Shown here: in pieces, positions 11,433-60,881 of the stretch | Layout of the letters: each line of letters starts with the position of its first letter | Position numbering within the stretch: position 1 is the first letter of the stretch | DNA from: Bradyrhizobium ottawaense | GTDB taxonomy: Bacteria; Pseudomonadota; Alphaproteobacteria; Rhizobiales; Xanthobacteraceae | Assembly (NCBI RefSeq): GCF_900099825.1 | Contig: NZ_LT629693.1 | Span: forward strand, 8,257,001-8,321,000 | DNA length: 64,000 nucleotides | Reading direction: 5' to 3' | Translations under genes and position numbers: made by a program | Notes under the pieces: model-generated | What the model was told of the DNA's origin: nothing | What the model saw: only the letters and a program-made list of their open reading frames with translations | Database searches by the model: none

Positions 11433-11447
11433 TTTGCATTCATGCAA
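11433..11447 (-). promoter_or_regulatory. 16-bp GAAT element before leftward array
   Basis: TTGCATGAATGCAAA on the minus strand, 14 bases before the start codon at 11418. One of about 20 copies of TTTGCNNGAATGCAAA. Confidence 0.7.
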
Positions 11448-11580
11448 TCCCTTAGACACGCCGAACTCCTGTCGCCTTGCCAGCCGGCCTTGAGCCGGGT
11501 CAGCATGGGGTTTGTGGGTCCGGGAACCGCCCAATTGCCCGGTTGATGGCCGGGCCGTGTCTTAGGGGCTCTTGGTTACG

Positions 11581-11596
11581 TTTGCACGAATGCTAA
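11581..11596 (+). promoter_or_regulatory. 16-bp GAAT element
   Basis: TTTGCACGAATGCTAA, identical to the copy at 53477-53492, pointing right toward the gene at 11721. Confidence 0.65.
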
Positions 11597-11644
11597 CGCT
11601 ACACGAACTCCTACAGCGGTACCCGGCTTTTGTCAACCCGAGCT

Positions 11645-11660
11645 TTTGCCCGGATGCAAA
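11645..11660 (+). promoter_or_regulatory. 16-bp element variant
   Basis: TTTGCCCGGATGCAAA: arms perfect, core GGAT in place of GAAT. 60 bases before ATG 11721. Confidence 0.5.
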
Positions 11661-11720
11661 TGTCGGAACACAGGGTGACCCGCCGTTGAAATTCGACCCC
11701 CCAGATGGCAGATAGAGCCC

Positions 11721-11900
11721 ATGACAGACAGCGACATCGAAAAACGAAAAACCGCCCTGCGGGAGGCGCTGCGGCGCAAGCCAGGCACCGGCCTGCGGGT
11801 GACGATCGATACCCTCCTTGCCGCCGCCGAGCTGGTCAAAGCCGAAGAGGCCGAGCCGCTCGAGATCGGCCGCGAGATCTGGATCAGGCTGCCGGTTTGA
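11721..11900 (+). CDS. Hypothetical protein, 59 aa
   Basis: Small charged helical protein, first gene of the rightward cargo region. Its TGA overlaps a TTG start of the next gene (TTGA), indicating coupling. No family recognised. Confidence 0.55.
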   Translation: MTDSDIEKRKTALREALRRKPGTGLRVTIDTLLAAAELVKAEEAEPLEIGREIWIRLPV

Positions 11901-12334
11901 CGGCCCTCAGCCGCCGCCCCTCCAACGACCCGCACCGCAAAGGCTGGCGGGTGTTCTACGGCGACGTCCAGATCGGCCACATCGGGGAGCGAGCCGGCGT
12001 CCCGATCGACGTCGACCAGTGGGGCTGGAGCCTGAGCTTCTATCCCGGCACCGAGCCCGACGACGGCGCAGGCGGCACGGGTGCGACCTTCGAAGAATGC
12101 CGGGCCGCGTTCGAGCGAGCCTGGGAGGAACTCCGACCGAAGCTCACCGAGGAAAACTTTGAGGTCTGGCGCCGCGAGCGCGACCGCACCGCTTGGAAAT
12201 ACCGGATGCACGACCTGGGCCTGCCGATGCCGACCCAGACCACCACCGGCTGGTCGAAGTGCTTCTGCGGCGCTGACATCCCGATTTCATGTGAAGAGCA
12301 TATCCATACCGTCCACCGAGGAATTGGCGAATGA
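11897..12334 (+). CDS. Rhizobial-type hypothetical protein, 145 aa
   Basis: Read from TTG 11897 overlapping the upstream TGA. RKGWRVFYGDVQIGHIGERAG, WGWSLSFYPGTEP and ATFEECRAAFERAWEEL resemble a family frequent in Bradyrhizobium-like chromosomes and prophages. A C-terminal Cys/His cluster (CFCGADIPISCEEHIH) looks like a zinc-binding knuckle. Function unknown. The longer frame from 11705 overlaps the previous gene and was rejected. Confidence 0.65.
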   Translation: MTALSRRPSNDPHRKGWRVFYGDVQIGHIGERAGVPIDVDQWGWSLSFYPGTEPDDGAGGTGATFEECRAAFERAWEELRPKLTEENFEVWRRERDRTAWKYRMHDLGLPMPTQTTTGWSKCFCGADIPISCEEHIHTVHRGIGE

Positions 12335-12591
12335 GACTGACCAACGAGCGGCCCTACGCGAAGCCGGAGGCTGCGGCGAAGCGGCTATGGGAGATCATCC
12401 AGAAGATCGAGCCGGTGCATGGCCGCACGCACGTCGAGAAATTCAACGGCCCGTTCCTATTCGTCGACATGGCCACACCTGCCGAGTATTCGGCCGGCAT
12501 GAATATCCTGGTGGAACGCGGGTTCTGCCAGTGGCACGAGAGCGGAACTTTCATCACACTGCTCAAGGAAACCGACTCGCATTTCGACTGA
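12331..12591 (+). CDS. Hypothetical protein, 86 aa
   Basis: ATG overlaps the upstream TGA. Mixed alpha/beta small protein, no family recognised. Confidence 0.6.
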   Translation: MRLTNERPYAKPEAAAKRLWEIIQKIEPVHGRTHVEKFNGPFLFVDMATPAEYSAGMNILVERGFCQWHESGTFITLLKETDSHFD

Positions 12592-12626
12592 GGCGACCCT
12601 ACGTTTGACTCCGGTCAGTGGAGTTT

Positions 12627-12977
12627 ATGCGTATGGCCTCGCCCTCGATTATTCCCAACGACCGGCTCGACCGGGATTTCTACATCGTCCTCGAAGAGTT
12701 CCGGGACGGCGCCGCGTTTCGGGAGACCGACGAAGGCGTCGGTTATGACGACATCATCGATCAGCTGCTGGCCGGCGAGTTCGGCCAGGTTCTACGGGTG
12801 GTGGCGTTCAACCCATCCGAGGGATGGTCGAGGGACGCCAGCGAGGATATCGCCCGCGAGCTGGAGCGCCGGATCAGCAACGAGGGTCGCGAAGTCTCCG
12901 ACGCCCTGACGGACTTCATCGAAGGTCAGCTCGGCCGCAAGATCGGCGTGCAGCTGCCGCTACCGCTTCAGATCTGA
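12627..12977 (+). CDS. Hypothetical protein, about 116 aa
   Basis: Start set at ATG 12627 (GTGGAG a few bases upstream); ATG 12633 is also possible. The N-terminal segment DRDFYIVLEEFRDGAAFRETDEG is typical of rhizobial unknowns. Acidic, helical, cytoplasmic. Function unknown. Confidence 0.6.
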   Translation: MRMASPSIIPNDRLDRDFYIVLEEFRDGAAFRETDEGVGYDDIIDQLLAGEFGQVLRVVAFNPSEGWSRDASEDIARELERRISNEGREVSDALTDFIEGQLGRKIGVQLPLPLQI

Positions 12978-13046
12978 CCTGTAAGAAAATCGCCGCAAAT
13001 TTCTGACACGACTCGCATTTTGCCTTCGGGCTCATAGATCACTTCA

Positions 13047-13643
13047 ATGCCAAAACCGTTCGAATATTGTCGGCCGGTCGCCCAAAAGGCCGTACCCGCT
13101 GGACCCGACTGGATCCACGAGGTCAAATACGACGGCTACCGCGGTCGCATCGTCCGCGAGGGTAAGGACGTGCGCCTGCTATCGAAGTCTGGCCTCGACT
13201 GGACCTGGCGTTTCCCCTGGATCGTCGAGACGGCGCACAAGATCCGCACGAGCCGCTTTGCGATCGACGGCGAGATCGTCGTGCTCGATGTGCAGGGAAT
13301 CTCCAACTTCGACGCGCTCCACTCAGGCCGGCACAACGAGGAGGCCCAGCTCTACGCCTTCGACCTCGTGGCGCTGGACGGCGATGACCTCCGCGACCTG
13401 CCGCTGTTCGAGCGCAAGGACCGGCTCGGCAAGCTGCTCCGCGGCCGGCCCGAAGGCATCTTCGTGGCGCCGTTCGAGCAGGGCGAGATCGGCCCCAGCC
13501 TGTTCGAGGCGGCATGCCGCATGGAACTCGAGGGCTTGGTGTCCAAGCACCGTGATCGGCTCTATCGGCCCCGGACCTGCGACTGGGTGAAAGTGAAGAA
13601 CCGGGCTCATCCGGCGTTCTTGCGAGTGATGGACTCATTTTGA
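13047..13643 (+). CDS. Short LigD-type ATP-dependent DNA ligase domain
   Basis: 198 residues. Motif I EVKYDGYRG supplies the lysine that takes AMP (about residue 29); FAIDGEIVVLD is motif III, LEGLVSKHRDR motif IV and DWVKVKN motif V. The OB-fold C-terminal domain of full ligases is absent, so this is an adenylation domain alone, a form common in Bradyrhizobium genomes. It could seal nicks in replication or repair, but lacking the OB fold it may be weak or need a partner. Broken copies of its 3' end follow at 15780 and 16798. Confidence 0.85.
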   Translation: MPKPFEYCRPVAQKAVPAGPDWIHEVKYDGYRGRIVREGKDVRLLSKSGLDWTWRFPWIVETAHKIRTSRFAIDGEIVVLDVQGISNFDALHSGRHNEEAQLYAFDLVALDGDDLRDLPLFERKDRLGKLLRGRPEGIFVAPFEQGEIGPSLFEAACRMELEGLVSKHRDRLYRPRTCDWVKVKNRAHPAFLRVMDSF

Positions 13644-13678
13644 AAAGTGGAGGTAGGCGACGACGAGAGCGGCGACGA

Positions 13679-14242
13679 TCATGTCGACCCCGACCGCTTC
13701 TGCTCCTCGACGGCTTTCTCGCACATCGTCTTGAACTGCTGGAACGTGTTGAGCAGATGGCGACCGCGCTTCATGAACTTCTCGAACCGCCAGTAGTCGA
13801 AGGATTCGGCGGTCACGAAGTCGTCGCTCTCCAGCATCTTCGAATGCCACAGCACCATCGGTATGCCCTCGGGCGGCGTCGCCGTCTCGCCGGGCATGTC
13901 GCCGCCGAAGCGGACGGACCACGTCCCGTGGGCGATCAGGTTGCGCTCCTGACGGAGTTCGGCGAGCGCGTCCCACATTGCCGACACGTCGAGCTTCATG
14001 TGGTCCTCGACGATGGAGCGGATGAACTTGATGTTTTCGTGCGCGTGTTCCTTCGCGATCTGCTTCTTCCGCTTCAGGTCGGGCTGTTCGAGAGCCCATA
14101 CGCTTTCAATCAGCATGCAATCGATGTGCGAGAAGACGGTCACCGCATCTGCGATGGCGATCTTGAGGCGGTCCGGCAGCGTGAACGACCACGTCATGCC
14201 GGGGACGGCGATGCTGGTCGGCGGCGGTTTCTGTTTGGACAT
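13679..14242 (-). CDS. HEPN-motif protein A, 187 aa
   Basis: Helical protein with ELRQERNLIAHGTW; the R-N-x3-H pattern matches the catalytic signature of HEPN RNases (Rx4-6H with a polar residue after Arg). HEPN proteins often act in toxin-antitoxin or phage-defence systems. It forms a leftward pair with the related gene at 14242-14748 (1-base overlap) inside the cargo region. Similarity beyond the motif cannot be judged here. Confidence 0.6.
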   Translation of the reverse strand: MSKQKPPPTSIAVPGMTWSFTLPDRLKIAIADAVTVFSHIDCMLIESVWALEQPDLKRKKQIAKEHAHENIKFIRSIVEDHMKLDVSAMWDALAELRQERNLIAHGTWSVRFGGDMPGETATPPEGIPMVLWHSKMLESDDFVTAESFDYWRFEKFMKRGRHLLNTFQQFKTMCEKAVEEQKRSGST

Positions 14243-14909: not shown

Positions 14910-14916
14910 GGCCGCC

Positions 14917-15165: not shown

Positions 15166-15226
15166 TACTCTCCCCCAAGTTGCGGCCTATAATGGACGGG
15201 TCCAGGGCGGGAATCGAGGGGGATCA

Positions 15227-17413: not shown

Positions 17414-17428
17414 GTTTGCATTCGTGCT
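17414..17428 (-). promoter_or_regulatory. GAAT element variant, reversed
   Basis: TTTGCATTCGTGCTA; its GAAT core is on the minus strand although the nearest gene (ATG 17440) is rightward. The one clear orientation exception in the set. Confidence 0.5.
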
Positions 17429-17439
17429 AGGCAGGCCAG

Positions 17440-17823
17440 ATGCAAACAGACTGGTTGAGATGGGGCGTCGAGACGGTCCTCAAGACGTTTCGCGACTCCG
17501 AGGCCGCCGGGTATCGCTCGCGCGATCGGCAGTATGCCATCGAGATCCTCGCCAAGGCCGAGGAGCAGGCTGGCGCCCCGGGCGCGCTGCAGGGCCGCGA
17601 CGACACCCTGCGAGGGCTTGCGGCATTCTTCAGCGAGTCGCCGCATACGGTCTGGTCGAACGACGAGATTGCCGACTGCCTGACCAGCATGATCACCCCG
17701 CCCGCGGACGAACCGGTCAAGGTCACGCCGAGCTGCGGCTGCATCTTCTGCGACTTGGACCTGGAGGCCGTCGATGGCATTCACGACGGACCGGCCGGCG
17801 AGAGAATTGAATGTAGCGCGTAG
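17440..17823 (+). CDS. Hypothetical protein, 127 aa
   Basis: Starts 11 bases after a GAAT element. N-terminal half resembles small rhizobial proteins (QYAIEILAKAEEQAGAPGAL); C-terminal half has GCIFCDLDLE. No family assigned. The stop TAG lies within palindrome copy 3. Confidence 0.6.
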   Translation: MQTDWLRWGVETVLKTFRDSEAAGYRSRDRQYAIEILAKAEEQAGAPGALQGRDDTLRGLAAFFSESPHTVWSNDEIADCLTSMITPPADEPVKVTPSCGCIFCDLDLEAVDGIHDGPAGERIECSA

Positions 17824-18579: not shown

Positions 18580-18778
18580 CATGCCCGTCTCGGCGTTCCT
18601 CGTCGCGGCGCGCGAGCCAGGACAAGCTGTCCGCGAGGTCGTCCGCATCTTCTGCGCTGAGCCCGGTGAGGGTAACGGTGTCTTGGCACGCCACCAGGCC
18701 GGTCAGCACGTCGATGACTGACCAGCCGAATGTGTCCCGGCGAATGGTATAGCGGGCGTACTTGGGCTTATGCGCCAT
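18575..18778 (-). CDS. Hypothetical protein, 67 aa
   Basis: Small beta-rich protein (YARYTIRRDTFGWSVIDVLTG) with a helical acidic tail. Rhizobial-type unknown. Its stop lies within palindrome copy 5 and its start region is next to copy 6. Confidence 0.6.
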   Translation of the reverse strand: MAHKPKYARYTIRRDTFGWSVIDVLTGLVACQDTVTLTGLSAEDADDLADSLSWLARRDEERRDGHG

Positions 18779-18794
18779 CGCGTCATTCTACACT

Positions 18795-18813
18795 AGCGCG
18801 GAGCGCTCGCCAC
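18795..18813. repeat. GC-rich palindrome, copy 6 of 6
   Basis: AGCGCGGAGCGCTCGCCAC, last copy, 17 bases upstream of the leftward gene's start. Confidence 0.7.
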
Positions 18814-19161
18814 ACTCGGCCTCGACCTCATCCGGTAAATGGCCTTTTAGGCGCGGCGCCGCTCGGGATGACCTCCCGAATGGGGTGGGGTCTTTTCGAA
18901 GGCCACCCCCGTTTGCATTTTCCAGGGCTTAGGAAGGCCATGGAGAGGCTTGCCGACCAGCCGGTACTGACCCAGCGGCCAGGGTGTTTTGGAGGGCCGC
19001 CCGTGCTCCGCTGCTCCTGGAGGGTGACATCCAGTGATGGTCCTAAGGGGTTGGCGGAAAAGGGCCTTTTAGGGGTTCGAAGTTTGGATGAGCTGGCCGA
19101 CCCAGTACCCATGTCAAGAAAAAAAATATTCTCCCAAAATTGAAACTTTGAAATGATATTC
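18814..19161. other. Gene-free spacer
   Basis: No gene supported. The last part (19110-19160) is AT-rich (AGAAAAAAAATATTCTCCCA, then TTGAAACTTTGAAATGATAT) in a GC-rich genome and looks like a promoter for what follows. Inverted GGGGTGGGGT/ACCCC-like stretches around 18880-18910 could form a hairpin. Confidence 0.45.
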
Positions 19162-19177
19162 TTTGCTCGAATGCAAA
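19162..19177 (+). promoter_or_regulatory. 16-bp GAAT element before the large gene-free region
   Basis: TTTGCTCGAATGCAAA, perfect arms, next to an AT-rich tract; a second reversed half-copy (TTTGCATTCC) follows at 19184. Confidence 0.7.
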
Positions 19178-20085
19178 TTTTCGTTTGCATTCCTCATTGG
19201 CTTTCGGCATATTCAATCCATCGAAACGACGTTGTTTCGGTCAAGTTGCAAAGCGGTCGGTTCCCTCTTGAACCTTCTGACTCTGCCCGGCGATGTGATG
19301 CCGAGTAGTTTGGACCTTTGAAACTTGCACATAGCAATTGCGGACCTTGTAGCGGTAGCAAGCAAATGCGTTCTAGGGCCTTGGGCCGATGCCGGACGGC
19401 GGAACGTGTAAGCAAGTGAGCGAAGGGGAAAAGCGGCGAACGTGTCATGTAGCAACCGGGCAACCGGCCAAGCCTTGATACCAAGCCAGCGGATTGCAGC
19501 CCTTCAATGGGCGGATGTGCAAGGGGATAGGTTACAGGCTTTCACCTAGACGGTTGACGAAACCGGAAAATAGCATCGGAGAGTCCTATTCAGTTAGGTA
19601 TACCGTTGCCTGCTAGATCGGAAATTATGCATTCGACCCTGTACGGAGTCGCGTGGCATTCCTTAAACTGCTTTGACCGGCTGGTTTAGGGAACGTTCAC
19701 GCAATAGACTTTCCAGACGCTAACACGCGCGGGTTACCCTAGCGGTAACCTTGTGGCCTCCGAATGCATGGTTCAACCGGCTATCGTTTCCCGCTCTATT
19801 CGGCAATGGCATGCTTTGAGCGGTGCGATAGCGGCGGACAAACCAAGCCAGACAATAGCGCAATGATATAGGCGGAACGGCGGAACGCGGGCGATTTATC
19901 GCGGCGTTTTCTGTTTCGTCCGGACCATTGCGAACTAGGCCCGGCAAAGTCCCGTCTTAGCAAAATTTCAACGTCAAACACCAAGCGACTCCGAGTGCAT
20001 TTCAACGTGCGCTCGGAGTCTGCCTGCTATCCGGCAAGCGCATTCGACTTGCCCTTACCCGATAGCAGCACAGCATGACTATCGA
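19178..20085 (+). ncRNA. Candidate large structured RNA (~0.9 kb)
   Basis: Over 900 bases with no convincing gene on either strand but many short inverted repeats: 19222-19239, 19288-19303, 19324-19362, 19528-19548, 19661-19691, 19732-19750 (GGTTACC/GGTAACC), 19891-19902 (GCGAT-TT-ATCGC), 19987-20020 (GACTCCGAG/CTCGGAGTC) and 20025-20067 (TGCTATC/GATAGCA enclosing GGCAAG/CTTGCC). Base composition is less GC-rich than neighbours. Size, hairpin density and phage setting recall GOLLD- or ROOL-type giant RNAs, but no family match is claimed. Strand is inferred from the upstream element. Confidence 0.4.
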
Positions 20086-20115
20086 TCACCCCCACTCCCA
20101 ATGGAGACTCGAACT

Positions 20116-21327: not shown

Positions 21328-21528
21328 ATGGTGACCATCCGAGAAGCCCGTCAGCGTCTGTTGGTGTCAGGCATGCGTCTGTCCCGCCGCGATGCCGAGT
21401 TCCGCGTGGCCTTCGCCGAGTTGCCGTACCCAAAGGCTGAGAAGTCCGCCTACTACACCGACGATATCGAGGACGCCATGCTTACCGGAGCCATGATGCG
21501 CCGGAAGTGTGTCCGGCCGCTTGCTTGA
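21328..21528 (+). CDS. Hypothetical protein, 66 aa
   Basis: ATG 21328 after AAGGTGCGCCCC. Basic helical protein (REARQRLLVSGMRLSRRDAEFR) with unknown role. Its 3' end overlaps a GAAT element. Confidence 0.55.
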   Translation: MVTIREARQRLLVSGMRLSRRDAEFRVAFAELPYPKAEKSAYYTDDIEDAMLTGAMMRRKCVRPLA

Positions 21529-21536
21529 ATGCCAAC
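21521..21536 (+). promoter_or_regulatory. GAAT element variant
   Basis: TTGCTTGAATGCCAAC, 23 bases before ATG 21559. Confidence 0.55.
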
Positions 21537-24581: not shown

Positions 24582-24802
24582 ATTGAACGAAATGGGAGGG
24601 CGGCAGGCCGCCCACAAAAGCGAGAGGCTGATCCCGGCTCGCGCCCTGCTGCTTCCCCGAAGGAAGTAGTCGTCGGTTGGAGGCAGACCTGCCGTCAGAT
24701 ACCCCAAGCTCTGATGGTGGTGGAGAGAGAACCTCGCGAACCGACTGCAATTTACGCCAGAGGTGCGCCTTGTGGCTTGTTTGAATGCGAATGAGGAATG
24801 AG
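24582..24802. other. Leader region of the 24.8-28.7 kb operon
   Basis: No gene supported. GGGCGGCAGGCCGCCC at 24598-24613 is a strong short hairpin. The shared leader CCAGAGGTGCGCC and a GAAT element (24776-24791, CTTGTTTGAATGCGAA) sit directly before the first gene. Confidence 0.5.
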
Positions 24803-29314: not shown

Positions 29315-29330
29315 ATTGCTTGAATGCAAC
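29315..29330 (+). promoter_or_regulatory. 16-bp GAAT element
   Basis: ATTGCTTGAATGCAAC, 37 bases before ATG 29368; a second half-site TGCAAATATCCTGCAAACGG follows. Confidence 0.6.
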
Positions 29331-31179: not shown

Positions 31180-31195
31180 TTTGCGTGAATGCAAA
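31180..31195 (+). promoter_or_regulatory. 16-bp GAAT element
   Basis: TTTGCGTGAATGCAAA with perfect arms, between the divergent genes 30712-31164 (leftward) and 31257 (rightward). Confidence 0.7.
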
Positions 31196-31256: not shown

Positions 31257-31733
31257 ATGACCATCTTATCCGCTGATCAGCTCGGCATTCTGAGCTTTGA
31301 GCACCGCGCGCTGCTTGAGGTCAGAGGTCTGTTCGCCAGCCATTCGTTCCATCACGACCCGGACGTCAATCTCGAAAAGCCTGACGGCTTCAATATGAAC
31401 GTCTCGTTCCAGCAGAGCGATTGCGGGACCACAGCTTGCATCGGGGGATGGATGTTCGAGGCGATGCGCCGAGACCGCATGGCGCCTTGCCACACAGCCC
31501 ACGCCTACCTGACCTTTCATTCCAGCGACGCTCTCGGACCCCTGTTCTGGCCCTTCAAGAAGAAGAACGGCGCCGAGATGCTCGATTGGGCGGGCGACAC
31601 CTACGATTTCCCGCCAGACCTGATCCCGCCGGCCTACGCGCTCACGGCGATCGACAACTTCCTGGCTACGGGTGATCCCGATTGGCCCACAGCCTGCCAA
31701 CTCACTCCGCAACTGGAGAAGCACTTTGCGTAG
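31257..31733 (+). CDS. Hypothetical protein, 158 aa
   Basis: ATG 31257 after GATTGAGGCC. Middle TTACIGGWMFEAM resembles a family of small phage/host proteins of unknown function. No catalytic motif found. Confidence 0.6.
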   Translation: MTILSADQLGILSFEHRALLEVRGLFASHSFHHDPDVNLEKPDGFNMNVSFQQSDCGTTACIGGWMFEAMRRDRMAPCHTAHAYLTFHSSDALGPLFWPFKKKNGAEMLDWAGDTYDFPPDLIPPAYALTAIDNFLATGDPDWPTACQLTPQLEKHFA

Positions 31734-31776
31734 CCCATTCATCAGCCCGTTCTTCGCTTTCGACATGATCTCTCGC

Positions 31777-31791
31777 TTGCTTGAAAGCAAA
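31777..31791 (+). promoter_or_regulatory. GAAT element variant
   Basis: TTGCTTGAAAGCAAA, core GAAA; 79 bases before ATG 31870. Confidence 0.45.
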
Positions 31792-31869
31792 CAATCCACC
31801 CCAGCTCCCACCCCGGACGCCGCCAAGAGCGGGGACATTGACCAAGGCGACCACCCAAAGGAGAACTAC

Positions 31870-32748
31870 ATGGATCCCACACAAGGCCAAATCTACAGCT
31901 TCCAGCCGCCAGTTTTCGATGCGTCGCCTGTCGCTGAACAGCTTCAACCCGCCGCCGCGCCGGAAGCGCCGCTCAGCGGTGAAGTCCTTCCTCCTGTTGC
32001 GGATGCGTCGGCACTGGTGCCGCAATATCCGATCGGGCTGATCGACTTCAATCTGCCGATCGTCGTCCTCGACAACGCCGATTACAACGAAGAGGAATAC
32101 GACAACGCCTCGATCGTGACTGTTCTCAAGGGCAGCGTTCACCCGGTTGTCATCAGCTTCTGGAAACACGGCGAACAGTGCATCGCCCAGTTCGACACGG
32201 ACGGCGACTCTTCCTGTGGCGACTACAAGGTTGAGCAGGAACAGACCTATCCGCGAACGGTGTTCGTGGTGATTGGCCGTGACGGTCGCATCCTGAACGT
32301 CGACGAGGAGCTGTACGCCAGCGAAGACGCCGCCCGCGCCGAGACCTCCGTGGACGACATCGCCGGCATTTTCCCGCTGGTGATCCAGGCACCGGAAGCC
32401 ACGCTGGCGGATGAAGTTGCTGGCGTGACCAGCCATGTTGCCGACGAGGCCTTCGTTGAAGGCGCCGACACCGATGACGGCATCGAAAGCGAAGAGGATG
32501 AGGACGAGGTCGAGGGCACGGAAGGCGCCGCGTTGGCACCTGCCCCTGCCCCAACCGCTCCGACCGAAATGTACGTTGCCGGTCGGACCCGTCATGTTGG
32601 CGAAACGGTTCACGCCTATCGCAACGGCTTCGGCACCCGCGTCTGCACCATCGTGAAGCTGCGCCGCGACGCTCGCAAGTCGCTGTTCATCGACCCGAAG
32701 GATGGCAACGAGCCGTACTGGGCGCTCAATAAGAACGTTCGGTACTGA
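31870..32748 (+). CDS. Acidic hypothetical protein, 292 aa
   Basis: ATG 31870 with AAGGAG upstream; the open frame extends to 31672 but overlaps the previous gene. A central folded part (IVTVLKGSVHPVVISFWKHG, RTVFVVIGRDGRILNVDEEL) is followed by a highly acidic Ala/Pro linker (ESEEDEDEVEGTEGAAL) and a basic C-terminus (CTIVKLRRDARKSLF). Unknown family. Confidence 0.65.
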   Translation: MDPTQGQIYSFQPPVFDASPVAEQLQPAAAPEAPLSGEVLPPVADASALVPQYPIGLIDFNLPIVVLDNADYNEEEYDNASIVTVLKGSVHPVVISFWKHGEQCIAQFDTDGDSSCGDYKVEQEQTYPRTVFVVIGRDGRILNVDEELYASEDAARAETSVDDIAGIFPLVIQAPEATLADEVAGVTSHVADEAFVEGADTDDGIESEEDEDEVEGTEGAALAPAPAPTAPTEMYVAGRTRHVGETVHAYRNGFGTRVCTIVKLRRDARKSLFIDPKDGNEPYWALNKNVRY

Positions 32749-35269: not shown

Positions 35270-35285
35270 TTTGCTTGAATGCAAA
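35270..35285 (+). promoter_or_regulatory. 16-bp GAAT element (consensus)
   Basis: TTTGCTTGAATGCAAA, the exact consensus, also at 60166 and 60866. Confidence 0.75.
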
Positions 35286-35359: not shown

Positions 35360-35376
35360 CATGTTTGAATGCAAAC
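35360..35376 (+). promoter_or_regulatory. GAAT element variant
   Basis: CATGTTTGAATGCAAAC, 10 bases before the start at 35387 and 75 bases after the preceding element: a tandem pair. Confidence 0.6.
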
Positions 35377-42924: not shown

Positions 42925-42940
42925 CTTGCTTGAATGCAAA
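42925..42940 (+). promoter_or_regulatory. 16-bp GAAT element
   Basis: CTTGCTTGAATGCAAA, 10 bases before ATG 42951. Confidence 0.7.
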
Positions 42941-43736: not shown

Positions 43737-43758
43737 TTTGCATTTTTTGCAAAGAACG

Positions 43759-43774
43759 CTTGCTTGAATGCAAA
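43759..43774 (+). promoter_or_regulatory. 16-bp GAAT element
   Basis: CTTGCTTGAATGCAAA, 41 bases before the helicase start; preceded by TTTGCATTTTTTGCAAAG, a second, differently spaced inverted repeat. Confidence 0.7.
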
Positions 43775-45581: not shown

Positions 45582-45946
45582 TCCTCCACTATCCGTTCGG
45601 TCCCCCGCCGCCCGACACCGACGTCCTCTTCCGCTGCGAGGCCAAGCGCTATTCAGTCGTCATCGATGCCGATGCTGACCGGTATGGCGTCACTGACCCG
45701 CAGCTGGAGATGACGTGGTGGCGGGTCCACAAACGGACACCGAAGGGAGCATGGGTTTGCGACAGGTTCGTCCTGTTGACCGCCACCAAACGGTGGGCCT
45801 GTGAAACCGAGGAAGAGGCACTCGCCTCCTTCATCGCCCGCAAGCAGAAGCACATCAGCATCCTTTCCCGCAATCTGAGCCGTGCCCAGGCCGACCTGGC
45901 CCTGGCTTACCGGACACATCCTCGTGCTGCACTGGTGTTTGCATGA
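45569..45946 (+). CDS. Conserved phage protein, 125 aa
   Basis: GTG 45569 inside the previous gene. RYSVVIDADADRYGVTDPQL, RTPKGAWVCDRFVLL and KRWACETEEEAL ... SFIARKQKHISIL match a frequent phage family of unknown function. Helical C-terminus. Confidence 0.6.
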   Translation: MAGVILHYPFGPPPPDTDVLFRCEAKRYSVVIDADADRYGVTDPQLEMTWWRVHKRTPKGAWVCDRFVLLTATKRWACETEEEALASFIARKQKHISILSRNLSRAQADLALAYRTHPRAALVFA

Positions 45947-45953
45947 ATACAAA
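45938..45953 (+). promoter_or_regulatory. 16-bp GAAT element
   Basis: TTTGCATGAATACAAA, one arm mismatch, 13 bases before ATG 45967; overlaps the end of the previous gene. Confidence 0.65.
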
Positions 45954-47958: not shown

Positions 47959-48336
47959 ATGACAACCAGTACGGCACAGCCTGTCCCCAAAGAACCGCCT
48001 CCGCCGCCGATCAATGCGAAGTTCGCCGATCGGCTTCCGCTGATCATGAATGAGATCTGTGATCAGCTGCTGGTGATCGAGCCAGCCATCACAAGACTGT
48101 CAGTGCAGCTCCGGGAATTTCTCGACTTCCTGGACTTCGAGATCAAGAAGGCCGATCTCGAGATCAAGCGAATGAAATGGGAGGAGAAAGTCGATCTGAC
48201 CACTGTCAGGCAGGCTGAGGCATGGCTTCAGAAGCTACGGCAGCTCAAGACCGACTTTAACGTCGACGTGATGACGTCCCCACCGGAAACCATCAGGGCG
48301 ATGGTCGACAGGATCCAGAAGACCTTTGGGATATAA
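47959..48336 (+). CDS. Coiled-coil protein, 125 aa
   Basis: Pro-rich N-terminus then long charged helices (FLDFEIKKADLEIKRMKWEEK). Last gene of the rightward unit before the terminator. Unknown function. Confidence 0.6.
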   Translation: MTTSTAQPVPKEPPPPPINAKFADRLPLIMNEICDQLLVIEPAITRLSVQLREFLDFLDFEIKKADLEIKRMKWEEKVDLTTVRQAEAWLQKLRQLKTDFNVDVMTSPPETIRAMVDRIQKTFGI

Positions 48337-48364: not shown

Positions 48365-49075
48365 CTATTCTCGAACCGTCACAAGGATAATGGCGATTTC
48401 TTTGATGTCGTCGAACTGCATGGTCTCGTCTTCTGTGACCGGCATCGACTTGGAGAGGCTGAGACCGCTCTCGTTGATGTCGACAAGCAGACGAACCTTG
48501 GTCTTTTCGTCCTTGCCGGTGAGCATGACGAGATCGCCCGGGACCGGATCACGCCGCTTGGTGGCGTACATCAGGGTGCCTGTCTTTAACCACTGACCGA
48601 ACGAGTTATCCGGCATGTGGAACGCGAAAGCGGTATCGTCCCCCGCGAGCTGTGGCGGCGCCGGCACGTAGCCGTCTCGCCGCGGGCTGGCAGCCGACTG
48701 CAGAGCAGATGGCAGCGACGATACGTGACGCAGCTCTACGGTTGGCGTAGTCCTGCGCGACGAACGTGACGAGGATTCGCCGGCTTCCGCATCGGCCGCA
48801 GCTTCCTTTGCATCATCGGCACCCAGAGCCGCCATCACCTTCTTCGGGATCGGATAGCCCGATCCGTTCGCGATTTTCTGAAGCGTGGTAATAGTCGGAA
48901 CGAAGGGGTGATCGGGGTTGTTGAGGAGACGGAGGATTGTCGAAGGAGCCAGGCCACAATGGCGTGCCAGGTCGGTTCCATTCCACTTCTTCCGATCCAA
49001 GATGTGATCGATCCACTCGATCACTACTTGCTTTGGTGATTGCGCCTTGGCCATGTTTTGTACCGGTAAATTCAC
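48365..49075 (-). CDS. CI/LexA-type repressor with S24-like domain
   Basis: 236 residues. N-terminal XRE-type HTH (GTDLARHCGLAPSTILRLLNN, about 33-53), an Ala/Ser-rich hinge, then an S24-type dimerisation/autocleavage domain (FHMPDNSFGQWLKTGTLMYA, DPVPGDLVML, TKVRLLVDI). The Ser of NSF and a Lys near the C-terminus would be the autoproteolytic pair, as in CI and LexA. GTG 49075 has AAGGGAAG upstream; ATG 49054 is an alternative. The palindrome TACCGGTA at its start may be its own operator. Confidence 0.8.
   Translation of the reverse strand: MNLPVQNMAKAQSPKQVVIEWIDHILDRKKWNGTDLARHCGLAPSTILRLLNNPDHPFVPTITTLQKIANGSGYPIPKKVMAALGADDAKEAAADAEAGESSSRSSRRTTPTVELRHVSSLPSALQSAASPRRDGYVPAPPQLAGDDTAFAFHMPDNSFGQWLKTGTLMYATKRRDPVPGDLVMLTGKDEKTKVRLLVDINESGLSLSKSMPVTEDETMQFDDIKEIAIILVTVRE
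49060..49069. promoter_or_regulatory. Palindrome TACCGGTA at repressor start
   Basis: TGTACCGGTAAA between the two candidate start codons; the only exact copy found in the window. Operators of this form are known for S24-type repressors of several phages; autoregulation is inferred. Confidence 0.4.
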
Positions 49076-49342
49076 TTGCGAGCTTCCCTTAGAATGGTTC
49101 GCTTATCGATAGATTGCGTCTGGCCACGCATAGGTTGTGTGATGCCAAACGCTCAATTCGCTCTGGATGAAAAGTAAGTTCTGACTGACATTCGCATTTC
49201 ATCCTTTCCATTTGTCGGGATGCTAATGCCCTGCCGTACGACAGGTTTCGCACGATTGCAAATGATTTTTTGTTCTTATTCTGTTCTGACTTCGAATTTA
49301 TATCAAACAAAATCAGTGACTTATATCTACCCGAGAATCGAT
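49076..49342. promoter_or_regulatory. AT-rich control region
   Basis: Clearly AT-rich against the GC-rich genome (e.g. ATTTTTTGTTCTTATTCTG, TTTATATCAAACAAAATC), with ATTGCAAATG resembling a GAAT half-site at 49255. It separates the repressor from the resolvase gene. An 86-codon frame on the minus strand has poor protein character. Likely the repressor's promoter and operators. Confidence 0.5.
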
Positions 49343-49951
49343 TCAGCAACTCAAGTTTCTTGAGGCGCCTTTCAACAATGCAAGTAATTGCTTAAATTCG
49401 GGTGTTCGAATGCCTGCATGGACCACGGCGCAGGCGTCCGCGGCATGCTCATTGTCAGCGTGCAGATCGCCAGCCTGGCGGGTTCGCTTTCCCTTGCTGA
49501 CCACGTCCTTGTGATATTTCTGCCAGGGAATAGACGGATAGAGGCCGGCAGCCCAGGAAATGATCTCCGGCTTTTCGGCGGTTTTGGTGCCGACACTGGC
49601 GAGTTTGGTCTCCACCGGCATGACCTCGATCAGGTTGACAGGTGACGAAGCAAGCACGCCGATCGCCACGCCGAAGCCCAGCGAGCTGCGCTGGTGCTGG
49701 GATCCTGAGGGGACTTCGACGAAACCAAGGGTGCAGTCAGTCATCCAGGCCTGAAAGCCGTCGTGCAGCTCTCTCGCTCGGCGCAGATCGTCCGAGTTCT
49801 GCCGTACCGTCTTCCCCTTGCGGGGCTCGGTCACGATGGTGTGGATTTCTACCAGCTCCAGGGCCAGCGTGTCCGTGTCCAGCAGCATCTTCGCCATACC
49901 CCAGTTGGCGAGCGAAGGGTCGATGCCGGCGACGCGGATGATGGAACTCAA
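49343..49951 (-). CDS. RuvC-like Holliday-junction resolvase, 202 aa
   Basis: TTG 49951 with AGAGG 6 bases upstream. The RNase H-like core shows the three acidic sites: VAGIDPSLANWG (Asp), FVEVPSGSQ (Glu) and EHAADACAVVH (Asp). Phage RuvC-like enzymes cut branched DNA before packaging. A longer frame to 50059 passes through the regulatory element. Stand-alone leftward gene, divergent from the replication initiator. Confidence 0.8.
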   Translation of the reverse strand: MSSIIRVAGIDPSLANWGMAKMLLDTDTLALELVEIHTIVTEPRKGKTVRQNSDDLRRARELHDGFQAWMTDCTLGFVEVPSGSQHQRSSLGFGVAIGVLASSPVNLIEVMPVETKLASVGTKTAEKPEIISWAAGLYPSIPWQKYHKDVVSKGKRTRQAGDLHADNEHAADACAVVHAGIRTPEFKQLLALLKGASRNLSC

Positions 49952-50011: not shown

Positions 50012-50027
50012 TTTGCATTCGTGCAAA
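50012..50027 (-). promoter_or_regulatory. 16-bp GAAT element between resolvase and initiator
   Basis: TTTGCACGAATGCAAA on the minus strand, 61 bases before TTG 49951 and 55 bases before ATG 50083; perfect arms, so it could serve both genes. Confidence 0.7.
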
Positions 50028-50082
50028 TACACCGGCCCGGTTTTGGGGTCAAGCCCCACCGGCCATAGCGCAACGGAAAACC

Positions 50083-50880
50083 ATGAGCATCAGAGCAATC
50101 AACTGGGTGATCGAGGACTTCGTCGATGTCGATCCGAAGAAGGTCACCCCGACAATGCGTCACATCCTGATCATCCTCGCCAATTTTGCTGGCGACGAAG
50201 ACAGCTCCTACCCCCGGCAGAACACGATCGCGAGAATCACCGGCTATTCGAGGCCATGTGTGAACAAGAACCTCAGCCTCATGGAAGAGATGGGTCTGAT
50301 CACCTCGGCCGGCCGCAAGCACGCCAACGGCGCCACGCGATCCTCAGAATACACGCTGCGCATTGCCGCAGCCAACAAGTACGACGGCCCCCCACCGGAG
50401 GGGGGTGTAACCGACGATGACACCCGGGGTGTAACCCAGGATGACAGGGGAGTCGCTCAGAAAGACTCGGCGTGTAATCGACGATCACACGGGGGTGTAA
50501 ACGAGGATGACACCTTGAACCACCACTTAGATCCACCACAAGAACCGAAACAAGAACCGAAGCGTCCGCGCAAGACTGCGCCCTGGCCGAGCGACTATCG
50601 GGAGCAGTTCTGGTCGCTGTATCCGAAGCGAAAGAACACCAGCAAGAAAGCGGCCCTCGACAAGCTTGCCAAGCTTGAGCGGGAAGATCGGGTGGAGTTC
50701 GAGACCATCATGACCGGCCTTCGATACTTCGCCGAGCGGACCAACGCTGAGGTCTCTCGTGACCGGTCCCGAGAACAGTTCATCCCGCACGCAATCACCT
50801 GGATCAACGGGGAGCGTTGGGAGACCGAAGGTCCGGCAGACCGAAGGCCGCCGCCACCCAAACGAAGCGTGGCGATCTGA
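50083..50880 (+). CDS. HTH replication initiator (lambda O-type), 265 aa
   Basis: N-terminal winged-helix (HTH_36-type) domain (RHILIILANFAGDEDSSYPR, NTIARITGYSRPCVNKNLSLMEEMGLI), then a repetitive spacer (GVTDDDT RGVTQDDR GVAQKDS GGVNEDDT, about 107-145) encoded by iterons, then a C-terminal basic domain (FWSLYPKRKNTSKKAALDKLAK). Same layout as lambda O: the origin lies inside the gene. It probably recruits the primase-helicase encoded next. Confidence 0.8.
   Translation: MSIRAINWVIEDFVDVDPKKVTPTMRHILIILANFAGDEDSSYPRQNTIARITGYSRPCVNKNLSLMEEMGLITSAGRKHANGATRSSEYTLRIAAANKYDGPPPEGGVTDDDTRGVTQDDRGVAQKDSACNRRSHGGVNEDDTLNHHLDPPQEPKQEPKRPRKTAPWPSDYREQFWSLYPKRKNTSKKAALDKLAKLEREDRVEFETIMTGLRYFAERTNAEVSRDRSREQFIPHAITWINGERWETEGPADRRPPPPKRSVAI
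50401..50514 (+). repeat. Intragenic iterons, candidate replication origin
   Basis: Five units of 21-24 bases: 50401-50424, 50426-50447, 50448-50469 (diverged), 50470-50490, 50491-50514. Consensus GGGGTGTAACCNACGATGACACC. The unit length equals seven or eight codons, so the repeats also make the protein repeat. The same motif occurs in a separate place at 16984-17050. Confidence 0.75.
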
Positions 50881-52647: not shown

Positions 52648-52663
52648 CTTGCACGAATGCAAA
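52648..52663 (+). promoter_or_regulatory. 16-bp GAAT element
   Basis: CTTGCACGAATGCAAA, 32 bases before the SSB start; a half-site ATGCAAAC follows at 52674. Confidence 0.7.
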
Positions 52664-53476: not shown

Positions 53477-53492
53477 TTTGCACGAATGCTAA
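53477..53492 (+). promoter_or_regulatory. 16-bp GAAT element
   Basis: TTTGCACGAATGCTAA, directly after the terminator and 10 bases before ATG 53503: an element just after transcription ends, so a new start is required here. Confidence 0.75.
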
Positions 53493-55455: not shown

Positions 55456-55471
55456 TTTGTTTGAATGCAAG
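55456..55471 (+). promoter_or_regulatory. GAAT element variant
   Basis: TTTGTTTGAATGCAAG; the last two bases are part of the ribosome site AAGGAG; 9 bases before ATG 55481. Confidence 0.65.
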
Positions 55472-57495: not shown

Positions 57496-57501
57496 GGGTT
57501 T

Positions 57502-58454: not shown

Positions 58455-58594
58455 AGTTCTACACTCCAATCATATGCGGGGTGACGGGGTTCTGGGGTGG
58501 AGATTTCCACTGCCTGGCCCCGTCCCTCCAGTACGCCTTCCGCTTGCTGGAGAGGCGCATCGTTGCCGGCAAGATCAAGAGGAGACCTTATTGA
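58451..58594 (+). CDS. Small protein, 47 aa
   Basis: ATG overlaps the previous TGA. Aromatic start (YTPIICGVTGFWGG) and basic tail. Unknown. Confidence 0.5.
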   Translation: MKFYTPIICGVTGFWGGDFHCLAPSLQYAFRLLERRIVAGKIKRRPY

Positions 58595-58869
58595 ACCCCG
58601 CTCTCATGGCAACCTTGTGCGTCAACTCGCTGAACGCCGCCAAGAAGCTTGGTCTCCCGCATAAAGAGGCCGGCATCACCCTCGTACTGCCCAAGGGCTT
58701 CAAGCCTCCATCGAAATTCCCCCGGGGACGCCTCCTCCAGGTTAAGGAAGACGGCACCCGAATCCGCTGGTTTCCAGCATTCACCCTGCTGGCCTGGCTC
58801 GTAGCCAACGACCTGATCAAACTCGCATCTGAAGGATCTGGATCTGATGACTATCGCATTGAAGCTTGA
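58591..58869 (+). CDS. Hypothetical protein, 92 aa
   Basis: TTG 58591 with AGGAGA 7 bases upstream, overlapping the previous TGA; ATG 58606 is possible. Beta-rich with KGFKPPSKFPRGRLL. Unknown. Confidence 0.55.
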   Translation: MNPALMATLCVNSLNAAKKLGLPHKEAGITLVLPKGFKPPSKFPRGRLLQVKEDGTRIRWFPAFTLLAWLVANDLIKLASEGSGSDDYRIEA

Positions 58870-59392
58870 TGCCGGCGCCATCGATAAGCTGTTCTCCGAC
58901 CAGGACAGCAAAGTCGAACTGCAGCAGGCCGTCGTTGCCGAGATCTGCCGTCGCCTGTTCACCAACTACATCAACAAGGACGTCCTGAAGGTCGTCGAGG
59001 CCGTGTTCGGCGGCGAGGCCAACTCCCTGATCGAGATGATCAAAGAGAACGAGACTTTCAAGAAGCGCTTCGAGAAGGCATTCGAAGAAACCCTGGTCAA
59101 GGTCAAGAAAGAGGCTTGGAGCCGGGACACCTACACCCTGAAGCCCGAGGCCAAGAAGAAGCTGGAGGACGCTGTCCAGACGCAGGTCGACAGTCTGCTT
59201 AAGCAGCACGCCCTCCGCGGTGAGCAGCTCGTTAATGAGACCGTCGAGCGTATCTTTGGAGCCTTCGAGACCCAAGCAATGGACGTCATCGACCGCAAGC
59301 TGACCGCGAAGGTCAACGCCCTGTTCGACGGCGGTATCAGCGAAATGGTCGAGAGCCGAGTCGCAAAAGCCCTGAAGGTCGCCAAGGCATGA
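58847..59392 (+). CDS. Helical hypothetical protein, 181 aa
   Basis: Long charged helices throughout (SLIEMIKENETFKKRFEKAFEE); 23-base overlap with the previous gene. Possibly a scaffold or coiled-coil regulator. Unknown family. Confidence 0.55.
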   Translation: MTIALKLDAGAIDKLFSDQDSKVELQQAVVAEICRRLFTNYINKDVLKVVEAVFGGEANSLIEMIKENETFKKRFEKAFEETLVKVKKEAWSRDTYTLKPEAKKKLEDAVQTQVDSLLKQHALRGEQLVNETVERIFGAFETQAMDVIDRKLTAKVNALFDGGISEMVESRVAKALKVAKA

Positions 59393-59604
59393 AGGGCATC
59401 GTGGTGAACTCGTTCATTATCTCCGGTGAAGACGGCTCATGCATCAAGGGATACCGCGATAACATGGGTGAACCGTTCCGATCCGGCGTGTCCCTGCGTA
59501 TCTGCAGATCCGCCGACGACAACGGTGCCGGCGTCTTCGTCCAGGACCACGAAATCGAGCAGCTCATTTCAGCACTTCGATCGATCCGGAAGCAACGGCA
59601 ATGA
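59389..59604 (+). CDS. Hypothetical protein, 71 aa
   Basis: ATG overlaps the previous TGA. Beta-rich start, basic helical end. Unknown. Confidence 0.5.
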   Translation: MKGIVVNSFIISGEDGSCIKGYRDNMGEPFRSGVSLRICRSADDNGAGVFVQDHEIEQLISALRSIRKQRQ

Positions 59605-59870
59605 ACCCAAAGTACGCACCAAAGACTGGCGATGGCAGACGGGCTCGCGTGATCGAGGAGATCGGCGAAGTCCTCAAGGCATTCGGCAAATGGGATCGTT
59701 TCGGCAGCGGAAGCCGCCATCCGAATGGCGGTATGACCAACGCTGAAGAGGCCCTGTTCGAGCTGGAAGACCTGAAGGGCGCGATCGATGTGTACCTCCC
59801 TGATGTCAGGGCAATCGTGCATCGTGATGCGGCAATGGCAGCGAGCAACGACAATGCCAAGAAGTCCTAG
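59601..59870 (+). CDS. MazG-like protein, 89 aa
   Basis: VIEEIGEVLKAFGKWDRFG and EEALFELEDLKGAIDVYL have the E-x2-E ... E-x2-D spacing of MazG-type nucleotide pyrophosphohydrolases, in a shortened form. Phage MazG proteins are thought to lower alarmone or modified-nucleotide pools. Beside the SpoT-like enzyme at 29561 it would be a second nucleotide-clearing gene. Active site not proven. Confidence 0.5.
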   Translation: MNPKYAPKTGDGRRARVIEEIGEVLKAFGKWDRFGSGSRHPNGGMTNAEEALFELEDLKGAIDVYLPDVRAIVHRDAAMAASNDNAKKS

Positions 59871-59871
59871 A

Positions 59872-60162
59872 ATGTCGCCGGCCCAGGTCCGGTTCCTGGA
59901 CGAGCATGCCCCAGCTTATCTGGCGTGGTTGGATGCTGTTGGGCATTCGGTCGGCATCAAGATGGAGCCGTGGCAGAAGCGCACAGTCGAAGCCATGATC
60001 AAAAATGGCTTCCTCACCGAGGACGGTCACGTCACCAAGGATGGCAAGGATCGCTGGCTCAGCATCATCAGCAAGCGCGACCGCGCACTGCCGCTGAAGC
60101 CTCGTATTTTGGATAATAGGGCGACGCTCATGATCGTGGACGATCCCGAAACTATTGCTTGA
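59872..60162 (+). CDS. Hypothetical protein, 96 aa
   Basis: ATG 59872. Helical and basic. Unknown family. Ends before the next regulatory element. Confidence 0.55.
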   Translation: MSPAQVRFLDEHAPAYLAWLDAVGHSVGIKMEPWQKRTVEAMIKNGFLTEDGHVTKDGKDRWLSIISKRDRALPLKPRILDNRATLMIVDDPETIA

Positions 60163-60165
60163 CTG

Positions 60166-60181
60166 TTTGCTTGAATGCAAA
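60166..60181 (+). promoter_or_regulatory. 16-bp GAAT element (consensus)
   Basis: TTTGCTTGAATGCAAA, 12 bases before ATG 60194; AGGAAAAG lies between. Confidence 0.75.
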
Positions 60182-60193
60182 TAGGAAAAGCAA

Positions 60194-60694
60194 ATGTTCG
60201 CTGAGCTTCCCCTCGCCCCTCCGACCGGTTTCCGCAAGGCAATCCCGGACCTGGTGAAGCTCAAGGTCGTGCTCAGACAGGACAGTCTGTGCGCCACCTG
60301 CCGCGAGCGGCTCGGGAAGCTGGAGGATACCCAGTTCGATCACGTCCCGGCATTGCAGCTGCGGTGCTGGGATCCAGAAGCGAAGAACACGATCCCGCCG
60401 GCTAACGATGTGGACTCGATCTTCGCAAAACACGTCGACTGCCACGCTGCCAAGACCTTCGGGTCAAAGGCATCCAAGCGCGGAGCCGATGTGACCGAGA
60501 TTGCCAGAACCAAGCGGATTGCAAAGGACACCGAAGCTTTCCGTCAACGGATGCTGGCGAAGGGTGACCCGGAAGCAGAGCCGCGTCCGGAACGCCCGAA
60601 GAAACAATGGCCGAAGAGGCCGTTTCAAAAAAGGGGCAAGGATGAAGGGCGTCGTTCGAGAGGTCAAGAAAGTAGCGGAACAGCTGAAGAGTGA
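60194..60694 (+). CDS. HNH-type endonuclease, 166 aa
   Basis: CATCRERLGKLEDTQFDHVPAL has the first zinc pair and the catalytic Asp-His; AKHVDCHAAKTFG completes the finger. A basic C-terminal ~60-residue tail (RPERPKKQWPKRPFQKRG) could bind DNA. HNH enzymes in phages cut DNA in homing, packaging or host defence evasion. Nothing adjacent marks it as a homing nuclease. Confidence 0.8.
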   Translation: MFAELPLAPPTGFRKAIPDLVKLKVVLRQDSLCATCRERLGKLEDTQFDHVPALQLRCWDPEAKNTIPPANDVDSIFAKHVDCHAAKTFGSKASKRGADVTEIARTKRIAKDTEAFRQRMLAKGDPEAEPRPERPKKQWPKRPFQKRGKDEGRRSRGQESSGTAEE

Positions 60695-60863
60695 CGGTGA
60701 GATCGAGGCATTCACCCTCGGTCACGACAAGAAGCACCACCTGATCGAGTTCAGAGTCCGCGGCAAGTGGATGTCGGTGCCATTCTCGGACACTCCCAGA
60801 AGTCCATACACCTCGAACTACGCGAAACAACAGATCCGGCGTCGCATCAGAGCGATGTCTTGA
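60642..60863 (+). CDS. Hypothetical basic protein, 73 aa
   Basis: ATG 60642, 53-base overlap with the HNH gene. Basic, helical. Unknown. Confidence 0.5.
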   Translation: MKGVVREVKKVAEQLKSDGEIEAFTLGHDKKHHLIEFRVRGKWMSVPFSDTPRSPYTSNYAKQQIRRRIRAMS

Positions 60864-60865
60864 TG

Positions 60866-60881
60866 TTTGCTTGAATGCAAA
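60866..60881 (+). promoter_or_regulatory. 16-bp GAAT element (consensus)
   Basis: TTTGCTTGAATGCAAA, 17 bases before ATG 60899; AAGGAGAAG follows immediately. Confidence 0.75.

Follow-up and report, generated by a model that had tools for sequence, protein, structure and literature searches.

The window analysed here, 64,000 nucleotides of the Bradyrhizobium ottawaense genome (C1:8257001-8321000 of a single 8.34-Mb contig), lies wholly inside a 117,311-bp prophage (C1:8210641-8327951). Dispersed over it are copies of a 16-bp near-palindrome, TTTGC-N6-GCAAA, whose central GAAT confers a direction, and one of its genes (48365-49075 in window numbering, used below unless a contig is named) encodes a predicted CI/LexA-like repressor. 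The sequence comparisons presented here suggest, with a probability of about two in three, that the element is the binding site of this repressor and serves as operator and stoperator. Among named phages, the closest is BDU-MI-1 of Bradyrhizobium (KY940711, 121 kb), which matches 59% of a 20-kb query at 78% identity and in whose record an integrase is annotated. The 11 kb to the right of the prophage (G000:C1:8327952-8339115) repeat its left end at 99.9% identity and contig positions 1-12019 (about 12 kb) repeat its right end, indicating that the contig was cut inside the prophage; the right end was also read joined to the left end, probably reflecting a circular or tandem form in the sequenced DNA.

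The most fixed part of the element is its right half, GAATGCAAA; T or C predominates at position 1, positions 6 and 7 are variable, and pyrimidine-purine steps are preferred on both flanks of the element. Pooling 17 sequences, with identical 56-base contexts counted once, gave 164 distinct sites, in which the arm pairs 2-15, 4-13 and 5-12 are complementary in 160, 164 and 135 cases, respectively, so that dyad symmetry is present. Allowing up to three mismatches, the window contains 34 matches (both strands, near-palindromic copies being counted twice) against 4.3 expected, a number reached by none of 100 shuffles. By using a weight matrix built from 63 sites of the prophage and BDU-MI-1, and taking 19 bits or more as a strong copy, we identified 22 copies in the window, 32 in the whole prophage and 32 in BDU-MI-1, in agreement with an earlier note on this DNA, made from the sequence alone, which had listed about 20 copies at coordinates that proved correct. 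These counts vary with the threshold, refitted matrices giving 34 and 43 instead of 32 and 32, and such refitting favours coherence of the word. At one mismatch or less, the whole contig holds 22 unique copies in the 117-kb prophage versus 3 in the approximately 8.2 Mb of host chromosome, that is, 3 of 29 places fall outside the prophage and its contig-end duplicates. Where both flanks could be aligned, the site recurs in BDU-MI-1 for 22 of 23 prophage copies and in the prophage for 22 of 22 BDU-MI-1 copies (one or both flanks of nine prophage copies were unalignable), and some of the matched sites share the same site-specific variant. Additional GCAAA half-sites occur downstream of the copies (23 observed at 64 sites, against 2.3 expected); upstream of the same 64 sites, GCAAA (8) and TTTGC (11) half-sites are found as well.

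The copies mark the heads of genes. According to the deposited annotation of BDU-MI-1, 30 of its 32 copies are intergenic, in a genome where intergenic sequence makes up 13% of positions, and 28 of these 30 are co-oriented with the next gene (2000 random intergenic placements: mean 15.3, maximum 24). The weight-matrix scan of the phage and a relative proposed in the earlier note, with chance closeness to starts as the comparison, placed 10 BDU-MI-1 copies with their end no more than 20 bp from a start, when random placements gave a mean of 2.1 and a maximum of 8. With the gene calls made here for the window, 19 of the 22 copies fall between genes, the other three (21520, 31776 and 45938) being scored as within genes; 17 of the 19 face the next gene, including 11433 and 50012, minus-strand copies that face minus-strand genes, and 8 of the 17 have their end no more than 20 bp from its start. 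Nine copies do end 9-17 bp before a start, as had been noted earlier (24776, 35360, 42925, 45938, 53477, 55456, 60166, 60866 and, on the minus strand, 11433). The directionality claimed at the same time is likewise borne out, except that 17415 (17414 in that note) is not the sole exception, because 49247 and the weak copy at 49211 are likewise oriented opposite to the genes beside them. The prophage and BDU-MI-1 share both direction exceptions, namely 17415 (100713 in BDU-MI-1) and the copy ahead of the repressor gene. Between two genes of the same strand, copies lying with and against transcription number 23:2 in BDU-MI-1 and 12:2 in the window, and, among relatives, 20:0 in G397, 19:0 in G398, 19:3 in G392 and 5:1 in G391. 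Early and structural genes alike are marked.

The 164 sites split into 106 that lie at most 45 bp from a start codon, referred to as start-proximal, and 58 others. Most start-proximal copies end at least 9 bp before the start, ahead of a purine-rich stretch, and 27 of the 106 end exactly 10 bp before it. Sigma-70-like promoters (-35 and -10 with a spacer of 16-18 bp) were detected at 15 of the 58 non-start-proximal sites, versus 1 in the control, and at 2 of the 106 start-proximal sites, versus 3 of 106 at a control offset. In 12 of the 58, TTGAC stands exactly at -25, followed by a 17-bp spacer and a -10 that runs into the element, which is the geometry of the promoter on the ruvC side of the divergent ruvC/O-like gene pair. 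The start-proximal class shows in turn a TG at -9/-8 (for example at 60156-60157) in 59 of 106 sites, versus 12 of 58 for the others, and no palindromic counterpart of this TG was found at +25/26. The T at -9 is still preferred in relatives (24 of 36 sites in G392, 14 of 26 in G397 and 12 of 26 in G398), G397 and G398 keeping it although their core words differ from that of the window phage.

In the proposed repressor, a Pfam scan gave helix-turn-helix (HTH) matches and no match to S24 at E values up to 1; the S24 label is drawn only from the predicted fold, for which the closest relatives are LexA and lambda CI. When its profile was compared with that of lambda CI by hhalign, the HTH part alone aligned, and inspection by eye indicates that the Lys position of the Ser-Lys self-cleavage pair reads Arg in most members of the family. 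A search of solved structures by sequence returned chance-level matches only, and a scan of genome contigs yielded one clear relative, L125, plus two 52-residue matches. Upstream of the gene lie two fixed, deviating copies of the element (TTCGCNNGATTGCAAA and TTTGCNNGGATGCTAA), 35-37 bp apart and both reversed with respect to the gene, a pair that is visible by eye beside an A-tract in 15 of 18 aligned sequences. The A-tract and a TTGCAA followed 17 bp on by TA suggest that the pair flanks the repressor's own promoter. In G392, a full repressor gene is followed directly by a second C-terminal piece, and a broken third match lies elsewhere (G392:C1:24355-25534 and 107604-107858).

Copies and repressor occur together. 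All 45 loci encoding the repressor (at least 37% identity), including two at only 37-41% identity, hold 2-12 copies, and 33 loci with a distant helicase but without the repressor hold 0-1. The former number counts loci rather than phages, two being the window phage itself and several phages appearing twice, and the helicase- and repressor-centred sets overlap; L126, with a match of only 52 residues, was left out of the 45, and L052, a 5-kb fragment without a repressor gene (helicase identity 72.5%, 2 copies), out of the 33. In an exact-word scan of IMG/VR, among the 80 of 111 stretches listed, all 8 contigs of at least 100 kb encode the repressor, one of them being the window phage and all having been reached earlier through the repressor. 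A repressor was found in one of 8 shorter IMG/VR records checked; three of the other seven hold a single match and four hold 3-11.

The word itself appears to change with the repressor. In the two phages whose repressors are 37-41% identical (G397, the record of L122, and G398, the record of L123), it reads (C)TTGCAAG(A/C)ATGCAAA. With refitted matrices, position 1 is C in 31 of 35 and 30 of 36 of their sites (window phage, T 19/34 and C 13/34), position 6 is A in 33 of 35 and 35 of 36 (window phage 10/34), and position 7 is A in 22 of 35 and 25 of 36 (window phage, never). L060 and L120, which are one contig, carry CTTGAT(C/T)GAATGC(A/T)AA, with A at position 5, in 4 of the 5 best sites; their HTH reads LSPSTILR, not LAPSTILR, and a copy upstream of their repressor gene shares the C5-to-A change. 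Their helicase is 68% identical, versus 66% in phages with the unchanged word, whereas their HTH is only 56% identical, versus 75-76%. Across 20 loci, the density of consensus copies correlates with HTH identity (rho 0.70), the partial correlation being 0.52 for the HTH given the helicase and 0.03 for the helicase given the HTH. Co-variation of word and repressor between phages is thus indicated, over few independent lineages and with neighbouring genes performing almost as well.

These data are best accounted for, among the three candidates offered in the earlier note, by a repressor operator; a promoter for a sigma factor or phage polymerase is less likely, and an RNA hairpin did not hold. 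The copy on the ruvC-side -10 would be a classical operator, at which bound repressor would block initiation, and the reversed, deviating pair would probably autoregulate the repressor gene. Copies that separate genes within an operon and show no promoter would be stoperators, at which bound repressor would halt polymerase arriving from upstream, so that leaky transcription in the lysogen would be cut gene by gene. The effect would depend on orientation, and the repressor's own transcription would be spared by the copies lying reversed ahead of its gene. A more tentative idea, possible but short of probable, is that in a large family of temperate alphaproteobacterial phages a repressor of the lambda-CI/LexA fold independently evolved a genome-wide polar block of elongation, its intra-operon site consisting of the near-palindrome plus an upstream TG-type polymerase element, for example a pause signal, from which a nearly symmetric roadblock would gain its polarity.

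Several observations weigh against the assignment to the repressor. No match of the element to a known CI/LexA operator was shown, and the conserved upstream TG is not predicted by a repressor model. Virulent T1-like phages, in the excerpts available of the relevant papers, also carry directional intergenic repeats, so that the pattern alone is no proof of a lysogeny repressor. The four repressor-less IMG/VR records with 3-11 copies may be fragments; they do not speak for the link. Of 15 queries, the HTH domain comes first only by a narrow margin (0.70 versus 0.65 for the next gene), and the whole repressor protein is sixth (0.60). L116 and L118 keep the consensus at 3.4 copies per 10 kb despite HTH domains 69% and 62% identical. 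In L120, the genes corresponding to 47959-48336 and to the O-like initiator are also strongly diverged (33% and 27%), which suggests that the word is tracked by the whole immunity region and not just by the repressor, and that a cassette swap is possible. Because the loci share ancestry, p-values cannot be taken at face value. Finally, L108, L116 and L118 are without one or both copies of the reversed pair, and the repressor genes of L122 and L123 showed no such pair in their upstream regions.

Start-proximal copies might instead be promoters or enhancers of an unrecognised type, made of the element and the TG. A polymerase that the phage modifies or encodes would use them, with transcription beginning at the element or immediately behind it, and copies at recognisable promoters would then be of another kind. 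We regard this as unlikely. It would account for the direction of the copies, their closeness to starts, and the TG, which is mainly start-proximal and whose T is kept in the changed-word phages, and the directional intergenic repeats of virulent T1-like phages, suggested in the excerpts available to act as enhancers or UP elements (PMC4319613, PMC11447400), speak in its favour. So does the 53477 copy: a terminator-like stretch is visible by eye between ssb and this copy, although the claim in the earlier note that transcription must restart there softens to one that it might have to. On the other hand, the near absence of sigma-70-like promoters at start-proximal sites (2 versus 3 in the control) argues against it, it leaves unexplained both the reversed copies before the repressor gene and the copy on the -10, and the marking of early and structural genes together is unlike a temporal promoter class. 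Nor was a phage sigma factor or RNA polymerase found among the Pfam families listed for 57 proteins (14 and 8 families). The 57 are 56 of the 86 proteins of at least 130 residues lying within single pieces, plus one of 125 residues, neither the bulk of the structural block (L034 from 11965, L035) nor three piece-border genes being among them; 32 were also compared with PHROGs. Window proteins were scanned singly as well, in two sets of nine and two of ten. A sigma-54 promoter was rejected. Such promoters have GG at -24 and GC at -12, and the TG-N9-TTGC spacing is compatible with this, but at the second position of the -24 GG a G stands in just 3 of 106 sites.

Recognition by another phage DNA-binding protein, whether a further regulator or one acting in replication or partition, seems less probable still. 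The divergence of 47959-48336 and the O-like gene together with the repressor in L120, the nearly equal tracking of the word by several genes, and the lack of a known function for most small phage proteins would all allow it, but the conserved pair sits before the repressor gene, the HTH domain is the best single predictor of the word, and the gene-wise direction and -10 overlap fit transcription control. An element acting in RNA, be it a hairpin, a start-associated sequence or a small-RNA target, is very improbable. The 27 copies that end exactly 10 bp before a start codon, and the location of copies on the sense strand, would suit it; however, the complete set of five arm pairs is possible at only 74 of 164 sites, position-1 changes are compensated in 2 of 53, the ruvC-side copy lies mostly upstream of the transcription start expected from its promoter, and an Rfam scan of the window gave only a tRNA. 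The hairpin form was rejected on the pairing counts just given, its arms not being kept by compensatory change, and hairpins overall showed no enrichment upstream of the copies (mean -9.7 kcal/mol, versus -10.4 and -9.5 in two controls). Last and least probable is a host regulator of the CRP/FNR type, whose only support is the resemblance of the FixK2 box, TTG-N8-CAA, to TTTGC-N6-GCAAA; the near absence of the element from the host chromosome, its strong fixed asymmetry and the change of word from phage to phage all oppose it.

Copies of the element and neighbouring features in the window (BDU-MI-1 counterparts are given where noted)
Feature	Position	Strand	Remarks
Copy, leftward gene group ahead	11433..11448	-	1 mismatch; BDU-MI-1 counterpart B98029
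Copy, GCTAA variant, rightward genes ahead, divergent region	11581..11596	+	Pattern, matrix, BDU-MI-1 comparison
Copy, second of rightward pair	11645..11660	+	Matrix, BDU-MI-1 comparison
Copy pointing against gene at 17440	17415..17430	-	Same exception in BDU-MI-1 (100713)
Perfect copy, 1.4-kb stretch without called genes	19162..19177	+	Pattern and matrix
Copy over end of called gene; next start 23 bp on	21520..21535	+	Matrix
Copy, start 11 bp downstream	24776..24791	+	Matrix
Copy, start 37 bp downstream	29315..29330	+	Matrix
Perfect copy directly behind TATAAG box	31180..31195	+	Box by eye
Copy within called gene 31726-32748	31776..31791	+	BDU-MI-1 counterpart B119825
Perfect copy, gene start 101 bp on	35270..35285	+	Pattern, matrix, BDU-MI-1 comparison
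Copy, start 11 bp downstream	35360..35375	+	BDU-MI-1 counterpart B1700
Copy, start 10 bp downstream	42925..42940	+	Matrix
Copy ahead of UvrD-like helicase gene	43759..43774	+	Matrix
Copy, ATACAAA variant shared with BDU-MI-1; start 13 bp on	45938..45953	+	Matrix
CI/LexA-like repressor gene (predicted), N-terminal HTH, C-terminal LexA/CI-like domain; proposed binder	48365..49075	-	
Variant copy, TTTGCNNGGATGCTAA type, conserved, reversed relative to repressor gene	49211..49226	+	Weak match
Variant copy, TTCGCNNGATTGCAAA type, conserved, reversed; contains possible -35 TTGCAA (49261-49256) of repressor promoter	49247..49262	+	
RuvC-like resolvase gene, behind promoter that the 50012 copy overlaps	49343..49951	-	
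Perfect copy on -10 of TTGACC-N17-TATTTG promoter	50012..50027	-	
ruvC-side promoter	50024..50052	-	-35 TTGACC 50052-50047; -10 TATTTG 50029-50024
O-like replication initiation gene, divergent from ruvC	50083..50880	+	
Copy ahead of ssb gene	52648..52663	+	Matrix
Copy shortly after GC-rich stretch and T-run behind ssb; start 10 bp on	53477..53492	+	Terminator-like by eye
Copy ahead of RecE/YqaJ-like exonuclease gene; start 9 bp on	55456..55471	+	Matrix
Perfect intergenic copy; start 12 bp downstream	60166..60181	+	Pattern, matrix
Perfect intergenic copy; start 17 bp downstream	60866..60881	+	Pattern, matrix

A few features of the window and of other genomes deserve mention beside these copies. 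The gene at 17440-17823, to which no family could be assigned and which has the reversed copy 9 bp ahead of it, an arrangement kept in BDU-MI-1, is possibly exempt from silencing in the lysogen. The stretch without called genes around the 19162 copy (18722-20115, about 1.4 kb), in which no Rfam family was found, could be an origin or a regulatory region. A second palindrome, TTTGCATTTTTTGCAAA (TTTGC..GCAAA; 43737-43753), lies just upstream of the 43759 copy, and similar stretches are present in BDU-MI-1 and several relatives. Within the same genus, G329 holds five exact copies over about 90 kb (G329:C1:2983956-3072748), probably a related prophage. G080, of another genus of the family, gives 15 exact pattern matches, of which the ten listed are spread across the chromosome (0.57-4.56 Mb); having other middle bases (GA, GG, AA, CA), they represent a different repeat. 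Exact TTTGCATGAATGCAAA occurs once in each of nine genomes of the family (G112, G328, G277, G339, G354, G382, G265, G304 and G075), possibly as one conserved chromosomal site.

Comparison with described systems draws on excerpts of the papers cited below. Cluster A mycobacteriophages (L5, Bxb1, TipsytheTRex) possess 20-30 operator/stoperator sites genome-wide, whose word varies with the repressor (PMC9283540, PMC6550527); the site spans 13-14 bp, lacks dyad symmetry and is recognised by a monomeric repressor that carries a special second domain, and reversing L5-type stoperators abolishes their effect (PMC9283540). The window phage resembles them in its many sites in short intergenic gaps, oriented with transcription, a few of them at true promoters, and in a word that tracks the repressor. 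It differs in its 16-bp near-palindrome, its repressor with HTH and predicted LexA/lambda-CI fold and its alphaproteobacterial host, and the block to elongation, experimentally supported in Cluster A phages, is here a prediction from sequence. L5 is about half the size of the window phage. The system would thus work like the L5 stoperators without being a member of that family, since its site has dyad symmetry and its repressor a predicted CI/LexA fold. Lambda CI shares the predicted fold, the near-palindromic site, the -10 overlap and the sites before the repressor gene; lambda has six CI operators at two promoters, and the window phage about 32 sites over 117 kb, directional and mostly between genes. 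Dispersed sites are also known for P1 C1 and phiC31.

T1-like phages (T1, Stevie, TLS), which infect Proteobacteria, carry about 20 asymmetric intergenic repeats of 22 bp oriented with transcription (PMC4319613, PMC11447400); they are lytic, and a stoperator, enhancer or UP-element role has been suggested for the repeats (PMC4319613, PMC11447400). Unlike them, the window phage has a repressor gene with a reversed pair ahead of it, and its word and repressor diverge together; the words look unlike, although they were set apart without alignment. The start-associated sequences (SAS) of Cluster K mycobacteriophages are asymmetric repeats just before starts, mostly in one orientation (PMC3203893), but contain the ribosome-binding sequence and lie 3-7 bp from starts, whereas the window element stands upstream of that sequence and has some copies on promoters. 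Dozens of dispersed, often intergenic copies are shared with the 17-bp palindromes of Cluster O, from which no stable lysogens were recovered (PMC4351075), and with the motifs of Nostoc cyanophages A-1 and N-1, for which stoperators were only suggested (PMC4916379); in both, as far as these excerpts go, orientation is not consistent, unlike that of the window element. The controller protein C.Kpn2I acts as an elongation roadblock (PMC6237814), but at a single site in its own gene rather than a genome-wide set. In the excerpts seen, stoperator-like precedents outside actinobacterial phages are thus those of the Nostoc phages and the lytic T1-like Stevie and TLS. Among titles and abstract openings of open-licence papers, we found no stoperator literature on alphaproteobacterial phages, and titles and abstract openings gave no description of this element.

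If the repressor reading is correct, gene-by-gene silencing of a prophage by directional dispersed sites would not be peculiar to actinobacterial phages with a two-domain monomeric repressor, and the widespread CI/LexA fold could serve for it in Proteobacteria as well. A comparison would also become available for the directional repeats of T1-like phages. The conserved upstream TG is a concrete starting point for explaining the polarity, and the many relatives, which vary in word and repressor, form a set in which the splitting of immunity groups and the one-way action of a near-symmetric site may be followed.

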